From Candidatus Mnemosynella biddleae (GTDB taxonomy: Archaea; Halobacteriota; Archaeoglobi; Mnemosynellales; Mnemosynellaceae), in assembly GCA_002011165.2 (NCBI GenBank), contig MTMI02000009.1, positions 1-64,000 on the forward strand: a stretch of 64,000 nt of DNA, given 5' to 3'. The translations under genes were made by a program, and so were the position numbers. Positions 3,897 to 56,898 of the stretch are shown here, one piece after another (positions within the stretch are counted from its first letter, which is position 1; every line of letters begins with the position of its first letter). A model generated the notes under the pieces. It did no database searches. It was given only the letters and a program-made list of their open reading frames with translations, and had not been told where the DNA came from.

Positions 3897-4003
3897 TTTT
3901 CCACGACTGTGGCGAATAACTGTTTATTTTCCACGATGTCTCTCGATCACTCATCTTTCAGAGAGCTGGATATCTAAACAAATTTTCACTCCAATCGTGG
4001 AAA
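3897..4003. repeat. Three copies of TTTCCACGA near the integrase 3' end
   Basis: TTTTCCACGA occurs at 3897-3906 and again at 3927-3936 in direct orientation. The inverted form TCGTGGAAA lies at 3995-4003, inside the last codons of the integrase. The two direct copies start 30 bp apart, about three helical turns. This could be a binding array for an element protein, but the motif is short and chance is not excluded. Confidence 0.3.
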
Positions 4004-4897
4004 TTTATCGACGATCTGAGTATACCATCGATCGGCGTGGTGAATCATCTCCAGATAATGTTTCGACCCTACGGTAACTCGAGCTCTCCCCTGAATGAAA
4101 TCGGCTATTCTCTCGGGGACTCCACACTCCACGAGGAAGTTATCCGACCACTTCCTGAGTTTCTTCGAGGTGATGTTTACCCCTCTGTCCTTCAGCCAGA
4201 GGAGTTTTTTCACGGTTTCATAATTTGGGAGATCTGCTTTTCTGAGAGACGGGACGAAGAAGCCGGGGAGATATGCAAAGAAGACCCGCTTTGTGCCTCT
4301 CTCCCAATTAATAGGATAGCGGTAAGCCTTTCCGTTTATTCTAATCAAACTCGAGGGGTCGAAGTTTTTGAGCATGTGGACACCCTCCACAACCCGGATT
4401 CCTGAATAGAGAAGCACACAGTAGAGGAGTCTCAATTCCTCTCTTTTGAGAATTTGATAGCCTCTAACTATCTCCTGAGTGGGTGGATACTCCGGGTCGG
4501 CTCCAGTTTTCGGCACGGGAATGGCCTTCCTCAATCTGAAGAGCTCGACATCATCCACATAATCTCTTTCCTCGAGAAATTTGAAGAAGTGGCGGAGAGC
4601 CAGAATAAACCATCTTCTCCCCTTCGGCACGCTCTGAACGATTTTCGATAGCTCATGTTTACTTGAAAAGGGTTTGGCGTATTTATCGAGGTAACGGAGA
4701 TACATTTTAAGTGTCCTCCCCTCAATAAAACCACGCTCTCCTCTCGATTTATTCTTAACCCATTGAATATATTCCTCCCTATAGTCTTTGAAGTTTATTC
4801 CTTGTTTCTTTTGGCTTAAATCGGTTTTTACGCCCCTTGAGAGCCGGTGGTGCTTATGCACCGCGTGGGTTCGAATCCCACCCCCGGCGTTTTTCAT
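3986..4897 (-). CDS. SSV-type integrase, C-terminal part (IntC)
   Basis: The first residues (AGGGIRTHA...) are the antisense translation of the tRNA-Ser core, as in fusellovirus integrases, where attP lies inside the gene. The ATG at 4897 lies outside the core in host DNA, so it is not the natural start; the N-terminal part should sit at the other border. The rest is a tyrosine recombinase catalytic domain: Arg168 in YSGIRVVEG, a conserved YRYPINWERGTKRVFF segment, basic residues in SKKLRKW (245-250), ADFIQGRARV (265-274) and Tyr281 in KHYLEM. The domain looks intact to its end, so the element could be functional if IntN survives. Confidence 0.85.
   Translation of the reverse strand: MKNAGGGIRTHAVHKHHRLSRGVKTDLSQKKQGINFKDYREEYIQWVKNKSRGERGFIEGRTLKMYLRYLDKYAKPFSSKHELSKIVQSVPKGRRWFILALRHFFKFLEERDYVDDVELFRLRKAIPVPKTGADPEYPPTQEIVRGYQILKREELRLLYCVLLYSGIRVVEGVHMLKNFDPSSLIRINGKAYRYPINWERGTKRVFFAYLPGFFVPSLRKADLPNYETVKKLLWLKDRGVNITSKKLRKWSDNFLVECGVPERIADFIQGRARVTVGSKHYLEMIHHADRWYTQIVDKFPRLE
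4835..4889 (+). other. attR: 3' half of tRNA-Ser(TGA)
   Basis: From the anticodon loop CTTGAGA (TGA at 4838-4840) onward this is a normal tRNA-Ser: anticodon 3' stem GCCGG, long variable arm (GGTGC-TTAT-GCACC), T-arm GTGGG-TTCGAAT-CCCAC, acceptor CCCCGGC and discriminator G. The bases upstream cannot pair with GCCGG, and no 5' half exists, so this is not a tRNA gene but the duplicated attachment core. Recombination in the anticodon loop is typical of SSV-type integrases. Confidence 0.85.
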
Positions 4898-5077: not shown

Positions 5078-5818
5078 TCAAATCTCTTCTGGTTGAATTT
5101 TCTTGCTCAAATAAATGAAAGGTGTATCGAAAACCGCAACTATGAACTTCATAAAGTAGGAAGTTATGAAAATCTCGAATATTCCTGATAATCCAATGGA
5201 GGAGACGAAGGATGGGTTAAACACTATGAAGAAGAGAGTGGTAAAGATCAGATTATCTATAAGTTGAGAGACCATCGTGGATGCATTGTTTCTGAGCCAG
5301 AGATGTCTACCTTCAGTTTTTCTCTTCCAGAATTCGAATGCCCAGACATCGTGAAGCTGGGAGATTATATATGCTGTTAAACTTGCTATAGTTGCATCTG
5401 GCATGAATCCAAAAATCTGTTCCAGAGCTGGACTAAGAGTATCATCAGGATGAGGTATAAAAAGCAAAGTGAGCTTCATTATTATCGCAGTTGCAACTAG
5501 CATGAAGAATCCAATAAAAACAGCTCTTCTCGCAGCTCTAACTCCATATTTTTCAGTAAGAATATCTGTAGCCAGAAATGAGCTTCCATAAATTACGTTT
5601 CCCATCGCAGTAACAAAACCGAAAAAACTGATAATCTTGGCAACTTGAACATTTGCAAGGATGACAGAAACTGCCACCCAAGCATAGAGTCCGTTCTTCC
5701 CGAAAAATTTGTAAGCCAGTGTTATGGCAATGAAAATTGTGAACATCATCACAAACCAGAGAATCTCGTTGAACACGGGAATGAAGTTTTTTGAACTCTT
5801 ATTTAATTTTTGCGTCAC
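5078..5818 (-). CDS. YhhQ-type queuosine precursor transporter
   Basis: A 246-aa membrane protein with about six hydrophobic helices and the hallmarks of the YhhQ/DUF165 (QPTR) family: ILANVQVAKI, GNVIYGSSFLATDILTEKYG, ISQLHDVWAFEFWKR, and RNNASTMVSQLIDNLIFTTLFF. Family members import 7-deazaguanine precursors (preQ0/preQ1 or queuine). It sits downstream of a bacterial/eukaryotic-type tRNA-guanine transglycosylase on the same strand, which supports a salvage role. The exact substrate cannot be read from sequence. About 130 bases separate it from tgt, and a candidate H/ACA RNA on the opposite strand fills much of that gap. Confidence 0.85.
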   Translation of the reverse strand: MTQKLNKSSKNFIPVFNEILWFVMMFTIFIAITLAYKFFGKNGLYAWVAVSVILANVQVAKIISFFGFVTAMGNVIYGSSFLATDILTEKYGVRAARRAVFIGFFMLVATAIIMKLTLLFIPHPDDTLSPALEQIFGFMPDATIASLTAYIISQLHDVWAFEFWKRKTEGRHLWLRNNASTMVSQLIDNLIFTTLFFIVFNPSFVSSIGLSGIFEIFITSYFMKFIVAVFDTPFIYLSKKIQPEEI

Positions 5819-5871
5819 TGAGACTTTTCCGCAACGATTTTATTTGATTTCAGAAAGTAAATTTAAAATGG

Positions 5872-5930
5872 GGCTCCGTTCCCCACGCTCGGGTGAAAAG
5901 CATGATCCCGGGTCGGTTAGCGGAGCCACA
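5872..5930 (+). ncRNA. Candidate H/ACA guide RNA
   Basis: The segment folds as a single archaeal H/ACA hairpin. The lower stem is GGCTCCG (5872-5878) with CGGAGCC (5921-5927), followed at once by ACA (5928-5930). Unpaired arms TTCCCCA and CGGTTAG form a pocket. The upper stem CGCTCGGG/CCCGGGT (with G-T pairs) is capped by TGA-AAAGCA-TGA, a K-turn/K-loop-like motif of the kind bound by L7Ae. The pocket top is about 14 bases from ACA, as required. The implied target would be CUAACCG-UN-UGGGGAA or a partial match. The ACA and the K-turn sense favour the + strand. No homologue has been checked. Confidence 0.55.
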
Positions 5931-5948
5931 TCTCGGATTTTCAGAATC

Positions 5949-7142
5949 TCAAATATATCCTAACCACTCTTTTTTAAATTCGAGAAATTCTCCACATTTT
6001 ATTGCTTCTCTGATTCTCTCCATGAGTCTGAGCATGAAGTGGAGGTTGTGATAAGATGCCAGTCTGAAATAAGTGAGCTCTTCTGAGGTGAAAAGATGTC
6101 TTAGATAAGCTCGTGAGTAATTTTTGCAGACAAAACAATCGCATGAATCATCAACAGGATTATCATCTTCTCTGAATCTCGAGTTCTCGATATTTATTCT
6201 GAATTTATTCTTCGGAGTTCCTCCAGCTTCAGGAGATATGTAAAGATGCCCTCTCCTCGCCCATCTCGTAGGCGAAACACAATCAAACATATCTATTCCC
6301 CTTTCTACGCAGTTGAAGATGTCTTCAACCGCACCTATGCCTAAGAGATGTTTCGGCTTCTCTTCTGGAAGAATTGGAACTACCCACTCCAAGATGTTAA
6401 GCATATCTCTTTTGCTCTTTCCGAGAGATCCACCTATTCCATAACCTGAAACGTCAAATTTTGAAAGAAATCTTGCTGAAGCTTCTCTGAGATCCTTGTA
6501 TTCTCCACCCTGAACTATTGCGAAGAATTCCTGTTTATCGTCCTTATGCTCCAAACACTCCTTAAACCATTTATGACTTCTCTCAAGAGCTCTTGCAGTA
6601 TATTCTTTATCCGCAAGAGGTGATGTGCATTCATCGAGAGCGAAAACTATGTCCGATTGAAGATTCGATTGAATCTTCATGGAGAGCTCTGGAGTTAAAT
6701 GAACTTTCGCACCAGTTAAGGGATGTTTGAAAGTCACACCTTTATCATCTATGAATGCAAATCTTTCTCCCCTCTCTACTTCCCCTTTAAAACCTTCAAG
6801 GAAGATATTATTTGCAATTTTTCCGACTCCATGTTCTTTTCCGTCACCAAGTGAAAAAGCTTGAAAGCCTCCAGAGTCTGTTGCGATAATTCCGTTGAAT
6901 CCCATGAATTTGTGAATCCCTCCAAGTTTTTTTATTACTTCATCTCCCGGCCTTATGTGGAGATGAAGAGTATTCGCTATTATGACCTCTGCTCCGAGCT
7001 TTTTGAGATCTTCAGAGTCCAGAGCTCTAACAGAAGCGAGTGTTGCAACTGGAAGGAAAGCTGGAGTTCTGAAAGATCCCCTTCGAAGTTTTACTATACC
7101 GCATCTCGCATCTCCATCTTCAGCCTCAATCTTGAATTGCAT
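5949..7142 (-). CDS. tgt: tRNA-guanine transglycosylase, bacterial/queuine type
   Basis: This enzyme exchanges a tRNA guanine for a 7-deazaguanine base. It follows the bacterial/eukaryotic pattern rather than the archaeosine pattern: single-domain length (about 397 aa, no PUA extension), catalytic ATDSGGFQ (Asp89), DECTSP, VQGG, GGSLGKS, FDCVSPTR (nucleophile Asp287) and a zinc site C334-x-C336-x2-C339 with His365, followed by the NYSRAYLRHL and HNLHF motifs. Those enzymes act at anticodon position 34. The ATG at 7142 is preferred because GGGGGAAG precedes it; an in-frame TTG at 7163 is less likely. About 15 extra residues (EAGGTPKNKF) lie before the zinc site. The transporter downstream supports salvage. 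Confidence 0.9.
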   Translation of the reverse strand: MQFKIEAEDGDARCGIVKLRRGSFRTPAFLPVATLASVRALDSEDLKKLGAEVIIANTLHLHIRPGDEVIKKLGGIHKFMGFNGIIATDSGGFQAFSLGDGKEHGVGKIANNIFLEGFKGEVERGERFAFIDDKGVTFKHPLTGAKVHLTPELSMKIQSNLQSDIVFALDECTSPLADKEYTARALERSHKWFKECLEHKDDKQEFFAIVQGGEYKDLREASARFLSKFDVSGYGIGGSLGKSKRDMLNILEWVVPILPEEKPKHLLGIGAVEDIFNCVERGIDMFDCVSPTRWARRGHLYISPEAGGTPKNKFRINIENSRFREDDNPVDDSCDCFVCKNYSRAYLRHLFTSEELTYFRLASYHNLHFMLRLMERIREAIKCGEFLEFKKEWLGYI

Positions 7143-55184: not shown

Positions 55185-56149
55185 TCTTCTCTCTTCTTTA
55201 GATTTTTCCTTGCTTCTTCAGCTTCTTTGGTCATCCCAAGCTTCTCATAAGCTTCTGCAACATGTTTCCACCAAGCATTATCTTTTTCAGCCTCTTTCAG
55301 ACAGTATTCGAGATACTTCTTATAGGCTTCTCTGGCTCTCTCTTCTTCTCCGAGCTCTTCGTAGATCGTGGCAACATCTTCCCAAAAGACTCCTTCTTCC
55401 TCGGCTTCTTTGAGATAATAGTCCAAAGACCTTCTCATCGCTTCCCTCCACTTCCCTTCATCCCCTATCTCTTTCCACAGCTTCGCAACATCTTCCCAAA
55501 ACCATGGTTCCTCTCCAGCATATTTTTCAAGACATTCCGCAGCTCTTTCTTTCTTTTCAGCTCTCTTCCAGAACTCATAAGCTTCTTTCCAGTAGTACGA
55601 ATCCTCATTCTTCTTCGCGAGCTCCTCATAAATTTCAGCGGCTCTCTCAAATTTCTGAGCTCTCTCATAACACCAAGCAGCAGATTCCAGCATCTTCGCC
55701 CTTAAATAACATTCTGCTGCTTTTTCGTAATTTCCTCTTTTCTCGTATTTCTTTCCAGCACTTCTGTAATTTCCGGCTTTTTCCAGTGCTTCCGCACTCC
55801 TTAACCTCTCTGAAATCTTCAAATCCGGTTCTGAGATCCACCAGAAAATGAAAAGACCTATTGCTATGAAAAAGATGATGACATAGGCAACATGCAGAGG
55901 ATTCCAGAAATAGCAGTTGTAGAATCCATAAGAAGAAATTCCTAGAAAGATTAAAGAGAGAGCTGAGAATTTTGATCTAGCATATATCAAGACTCCAGAG
56001 AGGAGGAGGAAAAGAACAAGTAAACTTAAGAAAGCGAGAGCCAAAGTTATTCTCAAGAAGGTGAGAATGCCAAAATAGTGAACTATAGCTCCTGAGACGA
56101 CCAAAACCATTGCGAGAATCCCAAACATAATTGCAGTCAATTTCTCCAT
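55181..56149 (-). CDS. Membrane protein with TPR-like repeats
   Basis: 322 aa. Four hydrophobic helices occupy about residues 5-25, 30-52, 62-80 and 87-107. The rest is cytoplasmic helical repeats with A-x-x-Y-E-x-x-G/R patterns (SAGKKYEKRGNYEKAAECYLRAKM, SAAWCYERAQKFERAAEIYEELAKK). Later repeats are spaced by W-rich turns (EPWFWEDVAKLWKEIGDEG, VFWEDVATIYEELGEEE). This combination is not a family I know by name; a scaffold at the membrane is likely. Confidence 0.7.
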   Translation of the reverse strand: MEKLTAIMFGILAMVLVVSGAIVHYFGILTFLRITLALAFLSLLVLFLLLSGVLIYARSKFSALSLIFLGISSYGFYNCYFWNPLHVAYVIIFFIAIGLFIFWWISEPDLKISERLRSAEALEKAGNYRSAGKKYEKRGNYEKAAECYLRAKMLESAAWCYERAQKFERAAEIYEELAKKNEDSYYWKEAYEFWKRAEKKERAAECLEKYAGEEPWFWEDVAKLWKEIGDEGKWREAMRRSLDYYLKEAEEEGVFWEDVATIYEELGEEERAREAYKKYLEYCLKEAEKDNAWWKHVAEAYEKLGMTKEAEEARKNLKKREE

Positions 56150-56217
56150 GTGCCCAAATATCTTTTAATCATTATTTTAAATTTTTTGTAAGAGAAGATA
56201 AACTGGAGGGAGGGAAT

Positions 56218-56898
56218 ATGAGAGAAGAGATTGAGGTCTTAGCAAAAAATCTTGGAGCAGATTTTATTGGGATTGCAGATTTGAAATTTTTGAAAGAATA
56301 TGAGACTTATCCGGAGAACATTCTTGAACATTACATAAGAGGAATTGTTATAGGAATTAAAGTTGTCGAGGATGTCTTTGATTTCTTTCCAAGTAGGGAG
56401 TTCTATGCAACAGCCTACGAGATTATTAACAGAAAGTTGGATGAAATTGCATACACAATTTCAAAATTCATAGAAAGAAAGGGTTACCGTGCTCTTCCTA
56501 TTCCTGCCTCGAAGAATCTTCAGAAGCTTAAATGGAGAAGTTTCATCTCGCATAAAGCCATAGCAAGAGCCTCTGGAATTGGATGGATCGGGAAGTCTTC
56601 TCTGCTTATCACTCCTCAATATGGTCCGAGAGTCAGATTGGCAAGCGTTTTAACCAATATGCCCCTCGAGGCTGGAGAACCGATGAAGAACAAATGCGGA
56701 GGGTGCAGAAAGTGCGTAGAGAATTGTCCTCCAAAAGCGATAAAGGAAATGGAATTTGAAGATTATCCAGAAAGTAGAGAACTAGTCTTCGATGTTGATA
56801 AATGCGCATCAGAGACTGGAAAATATCTTAAAGATCTGGATATCGGTGCGAGAGTTTGTGGAATATGCATCAAAGTTTGTCCAATAGGAAAAAATTGA
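56218..56898 (+). CDS. QueG-like ferredoxin-domain protein
   Basis: 226 aa from the ATG after GGAGGGA. KAIARASGIGWIGKSSLLITPQYGPRVRLASVLTNM and KCGGCRKCVENCPPKAI, with the last CGICIKVCPIG, are shared with epoxyqueuosine reductase (COG1600). Real QueG is far longer, so this short archaeal form may be a different reductase with two 4Fe-4S clusters. With a queuine-type TGT in the window a link to queuosine is worth testing, but the genes are 50 kb apart. Confidence 0.7.
   Translation: MREEIEVLAKNLGADFIGIADLKFLKEYETYPENILEHYIRGIVIGIKVVEDVFDFFPSREFYATAYEIINRKLDEIAYTISKFIERKGYRALPIPASKNLQKLKWRSFISHKAIARASGIGWIGKSSLLITPQYGPRVRLASVLTNMPLEAGEPMKNKCGGCRKCVENCPPKAIKEMEFEDYPESRELVFDVDKCASETGKYLKDLDIGARVCGICIKVCPIGKN

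Follow-up and report, generated by a model that had tools for sequence, protein, structure and literature searches.

Queuosine has been described as a tRNA modification of bacteria and eukaryotes, and archaeosine as one of archaea (PMC8204110, PMC5372724). What, then, does a bacterial-type tRNA-guanine(34) transglycosylase (bTGT) gene do beside a gene for a queuosine precursor transporter in an archaeal genome? We analyzed such a locus in a 64,000-nucleotide stretch of DNA (the window) from Candidatus Mnemosynella biddleae. A first-pass annotation had read the pair as a means of taking up a 7-deazaguanine and modifying position 34, or as a repurposed enzyme, and had suggested that it might be lineage-wide. 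The tgt gene (5949..7142, minus strand) starts with ATG and encodes 397 aa, whereas a TTG further upstream would give 404 aa. It is followed on the same strand, after a gap of 130 bp, by yhhQ (COG1738, QPTR; 5078..5818, minus strand), which has a GTG start and encodes a 246-aa transporter. The host genome, a member of the Archaeoglobi, comprises 11 contigs and 1.5 Mb and is complete by the listed estimate; among named organisms its closest relative is Ca. Mnemosynella bozhongmuii (79% identity). A contaminant origin of the pair is unlikely, because the 236-kb contig carries archaeal genes such as that for SepRS, the base composition of tgt and yhhQ equals that of their neighbours, and both genes are found again in members of the class whose genome is a single contig.

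Several other features of the window were recorded. An ORF for an archaeal phage-type integrase occupies positions 3986-4897, and its start contains 55 nt (4835-4889) that repeat, without a mismatch, the 3′ portion of the tRNA-Ser(TGA) gene of the same genome; this match points to an attachment site, the integrated element ending beside the yhhQ-tgt pair. The gap between tgt and yhhQ holds a hairpin with a 3′ ACA (5872-5933, plus strand; z-score −2.6), which is conserved behind the tgt gene of Ca. M. bozhongmuii (92% over 51 nt) and resembles an H/ACA guide RNA, the Rfam match to snoR9 being weak (E 0.55). Far from the pair, an eL15-Euryarchaeota ribosomal protein leader (Rfam RF03144; 53580-53625, minus strand) precedes the L15e gene.

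Judged from its sequence, the tgt gene is a bTGT of the G34 type by every test that we used, and chance is excluded. The protein scored 507.7 bits on the tRNA-G34 model TIGR00430 (cut-off 306.75), but only 138 bits on the archaeosine model TIGR00432, below the cut-off of 350. The bacterial/eukaryotic layout noticed at first pass was confirmed: Pfam detected the TGT domain alone, with no PUA domain, and Asp89, Asp287, Cys334, Cys336, Cys339 and His365 (the C-x-C-x2-C...H pattern) were invariant in an alignment of 14 Archaeoglobi sequences. The closest solved structures were those of bacterial Tgts, followed by the animal QTRT1 subunit, while the archaeal TgtA structure 1iq8 was a far weaker match (E 1e-27). 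An AlphaFold model (mean pLDDT 76.7) superimposed on Zymomonas Tgt with a TM score of 0.8-0.9, pLDDT falling below 50 at residues 103-127, where the enzyme carries an insert. In the phylogeny the window Tgt nested among bTGTs, with TgtA as a far outgroup (branch 2.97, 100/100); a placement among the archaeosine enzymes was thus ruled out by profile scores and tree together. The neighbouring gene is indeed of the YhhQ type, scoring 220.7 bits on TIGR00697, the 'queuosine precursor transporter' model (cut-off 50.95), and 172 bits on PF02592.

The window Tgt differs from canonical enzymes at two places. Its pocket loop reads GGSLGKSK (residues 237-244; codons at 6411..6434, minus strand), as assigned by sequence reading and from the invariant residues, and is one residue shorter than the E. 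coli loop GGLAVGEP. An insert of ~28 aa follows the residues SLG (approximately residues 100-127; codons at 6762..6845, minus strand); it is absent from canonical Tgts and present in the short-loop clade. Nearly all of the Tgts of relatives share a GG[SA]LG-type loop and the insert. When a tree was built after removal of the insert and loop columns, the short-loop Tgts, including those of Nocardia, Arthrobacter and Tsukamurella, still fell on one side of a 100/100 branch, which was recovered in 200/200 bootstrap trees. The enzymes of these three bacterial genera also have an insert and the short loop, which is GGALEK in the sequences read. Archaeoglobi sequences form one group inside the clade (100/99), beside sequences of Nanoarchaeota and Woesearchaeota, a topology that fits transfer of the bTGT gene between archaea in either direction. 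Tgts that salvage queuine carry an altered pocket, GG[LS][AS]G (PMC11570991), and in the preQ1 enzymes Val233 is an obstacle to queuine (PMC3660597, PMC11570991). The match of GGSLG to the published motif is partial, as the loop is shortened and its fourth position is Leu, and the missing residue aligns ambiguously: according to where the gap is placed, either Gly or Leu stands in for Val233. The window Tgt shares Cys158 with the preQ1 enzymes (DECT), in contrast to eukaryotes.

We then considered which other 7-deazaguanine genes the host possesses. The archaeosine enzyme that the first-pass annotation advised looking for is present: TgtA (597.6 bits, cut-off 350) and ArcS (532.5 bits, cut-off 440) are encoded in tandem. 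Archaeosine synthesis is therefore kept, and any modification made by bTGT would come on top of that at G15. A second YhhQ is also encoded. By contrast, the best match to the QueC family in the host reached 28.9 bits, against more than 200 in genomes with QueC; QueA was found neither in the host genome nor in any of 40 relatives, and QueH was not found in the host genome. The absence of QueA and QueC rules out de novo queuosine synthesis. An iron-sulfur protein encoded in the window (56131-56898, plus strand) resembles QueG and reductive dehalogenases, but its 73.6 bits lie far under the QueG cut-off of 200, and it was rejected as an epoxyqueuosine reductase. The search for queF, likewise advised at first pass, returned one QueF-like protein, whose score barely reaches the QueF-II cut-off (87.0 versus 86.9). 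Its QueF-II domain is fused to a nucleoside 2-deoxyribosyltransferase-like domain (L111:1683-2405); among the 40 relatives, 12 have a QueF domain, mostly those that lack bTGT. There is no QTRT2-like partner in the genome, where the only other TGT-family matches are TgtA and ArcS. Genes for all four tRNAs with GUN anticodons are present, those for Asn, His and Asp in the tRNA calls and that for Tyr, which contains an intron, by sequence reading.

To characterize the association between enzyme and transporter, we surveyed 59 Archaeoglobi genomes, assigning the YhhQ subtype by tree where the sequence had been fetched and otherwise by profile score and position. Both bTGT and the transporter of the window's type (YhhQ-A) occurred in 34 genomes and neither in 22; the exceptions were one genome with bTGT only, which is 73% complete, and two with YhhQ-A only. 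The Fisher p value for co-occurrence was 7e-13 by genome, a figure overstated by kinship between the genomes; counted by genus, nine have both and seven neither (p 9e-5). Chance adjacency of tgt and yhhQ is ruled out by this co-occurrence, and the suspicion that the pair is lineage-wide was borne out across the Archaeoglobi and extends to DPANN archaea and Methanothrix. YhhQ-A is a single clade (100/100) that contains the Archaeoglobi proteins, the bTGT-adjacent transporters of Woesearchaeota and Nanoarchaeota and that of one Methanothrix, and nothing else. The second transporter, YhhQ-B, was distributed independently of bTGT (p 1.0), but was present in 8 of 9 QueC-less relatives versus 12 of 31 QueC-bearing ones (p 0.02). 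Because YhhQ-B is independent of bTGT and tracks QueC loss, these patterns suggest a division of labour, in which YhhQ-B would serve preQ0 and archaeosine and YhhQ-A the substrate of bTGT. In the set of 40 relatives, 19 of the 24 genomes with bTGT keep QueC and also YhhQ-A. Since these genomes should make preQ0 and yet keep the transporter, the imported base is probably other than preQ0.

The association also holds outside the class. A single scan returned 80 relatives of the bTGT, from Archaeoglobi, Woesearchaeota, Nanoarchaeota, Methanothrix, ANME-1, Patescibacteria and others. A YhhQ-family gene lay near bTGT in 46 of these 80 loci, often within 20 bp; it was the one recurrent real neighbour across lineages, and no other gene was so widespread. 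Clade A (100/100) takes in the bTGT-adjacent YhhQs of many DPANN archaea and of one Methanothrix (L080), whereas a third, divergent YhhQ clade adjoins bTGT in other Methanothrix and in some DPANN.

A survey of 394 genomes of the host's own phylum, 56 of which had a bTGT above the cut-off, provided an internal control. In 8 of the 56, belonging to three families, QueA was encoded directly adjacent to bTGT. Six of these QueA-linked Tgts were read, and all lacked the insert and had a loop of full length, GGLSIGEP; the queA-tgt pairs lie at L150-L155 (genomes G366, G389, G243, G336, G199 and G363), one of them in a single-contig genome. YhhQ was found in none of the 8 QueA-linked genomes versus 47 of the 48 others (p 6e-9), and QueA in none of the 48 short-loop bTGT genomes of the phylum sample. 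At the level of gene content and loop sequence, this one phylum thus contains two kinds of bTGT: a preQ1-like kind with QueA and without the transporter, and the short-loop kind with the transporter and without QueA. A further 47 short-loop genomes included one with QueA, G430, where the gene belongs to a second, canonical queA-tgt pair.

Taken together, the uptake of a 7-deazaguanine and its use at position 34, as put forward at first pass, are supported, and the proposal can be refined: the lack of QueA, the form of the loop and the transporter that accompanies the enzyme point to ready-made queuine more than to preQ1. The genes themselves, their families and clades, their linkage and co-occurrence, the missing QueA, QueC and QueH and the tRNA substrates are observed; which base is transported, that it enters tRNA at position 34 and what clade B does are inferred. 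The host has tgt and QPTR and lacks QueA and QueH, which agrees with direct queuine salvage. Without QueA, preQ1 placed at G34 could not become queuosine. Combined with the altered loop, the kinship to Actinobacterial enzymes (queuine salvage is predicted for most of the Actinomycetota studied; PMC11130926) and the overlap of QueC with YhhQ-A, this makes queuine the best guess. We consider it probable that YhhQ-A and the short-loop bTGT carry out direct salvage of the base queuine and insert it at G34, the wobble position, beside archaeosine. In such a scheme, YhhQ-A would import a preformed Q base shed by bacteria, most likely queuine, and the short-loop bTGT would exchange it for guanine 34 in tRNA-Asn(GUU), tRNA-Asp(GUC), tRNA-His(GUG) and tRNA-Tyr(GUA). 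The inserted base would require no later maturation, making QueA, QueG and QueH dispensable. The archaeosine route (TgtA and ArcS, acting at G15) would run in parallel, with YhhQ-B probably supplying preQ0 in this QueC-less genome.

Of the other explanations, salvage of preQ1 is the most serious, even if unlikely. Either YhhQ-A would import preQ1 or QueF would make it from preQ0, and bTGT would leave preQ1 at G34 without further processing. This has been proposed for Bartonella, a case which shows that the lack of QueA is no proof of queuine use (PMC11570991). The QueF-like protein of the host could convert salvaged preQ0 to preQ1, Cys158 is retained, and traces of preQ1 were reported in tRNA from a bacterium that has tgt and QPTR alone (PMC11570991). 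On the other hand, the loop differs from the preQ1-type GGLAVG/GGLSIG that the QueA-linked archaeal Tgts do have, and among the 40 relatives QueF was found in 4 of 24 genomes with bTGT versus 8 of 16 without, which rules it out as a general source of preQ1 for the lineage and leaves it as a rival for the window's genome.

That bTGT inserts preQ0, whether at position 34 or elsewhere, or serves as a backup for archaeosine synthesis, is more doubtful still. Salvage of preQ0 has been proposed for archaeal COG1738 proteins (Zallot 2017, PMC5372724), and a host without QueC must obtain preQ0 externally; but TgtA and ArcS are intact in this genome, the separate YhhQ-B clade is the one that follows QueC loss (8/9, p 0.02), and bTGT persists in the 19 QueC-bearing relatives. 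Least credible of all is the idea that YhhQ-A and bTGT are unrelated neighbours and that the transporter carries another compound: the two genes do lie apart in several Archaeoglobi, but their co-occurrence is near-perfect even when they are unlinked, and their linkage recurs in DPANN and Methanothrix.

Returning to queuine salvage, we give roughly even chances to the broader proposition that Archaeoglobi, Methanothrix and many DPANN archaea have true queuosine in their anticodons through cross-feeding of bacterial queuine and a dedicated transporter, with archaeosine made in parallel. If true, queuosine would be present in all three domains, queuine would be a micronutrient for archaea, and it would be one more substance that archaea receive from bacteria in anaerobic communities. 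Archaea of the Archaeoglobus and Geoglobus groups that carry the lineage-wide pair can be cultivated, which makes the question directly testable. In the literature searched, which included few subscription papers, we found no earlier report of a QueA-less, transporter-coupled short-loop pair in Archaeoglobi, or of a YhhQ family divided into one clade for archaeosine and another for bTGT; Zallot 2017 (PMC5372724) had noted archaeal COG1738 proteins.

The occurrence of QueA, QueH and Tgt in DPANN and Methanosarcinales is already known from Castelle 2021 (PMC8204110). That report resembles ours in describing a bacterial-type Tgt in archaea, but it concerns a pathway of biosynthesis that includes QueA and QueH, whereas the window's type has no QueA, a different type of Tgt and a paired transporter; among our genomes, the 8 with QueA-linked bTGT are the ones that resemble it. 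The archaeosine enzymes TgtA and ArcS belong to the same TGT superfamily and share a genome with bTGT, but TgtA acts at G15, is a longer protein and is a far outgroup in the tree. Eukaryotic QTRT1/QTRT2 would act alike in inserting salvaged queuine, although the window's genome lacks a QTRT2-like partner. The nearest parallel is direct queuine salvage in bacteria, in Chlamydia trachomatis and, as predicted, in Actinomycetota (PMC11570991, PMC11130926), which has in common with the window's pair a tgt and a COG1738 transporter without QueA or QueH, and an altered loop. The Actinobacterial Tgts even fall in the same clade as the window Tgt and share its short loop and the possession of an insert. 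What sets the archaeal pair apart is a host with archaeosine enzymes, a distinct transporter clade, and a loop that reads GGSLG instead of GG[LS][AS]G or GGALEK.
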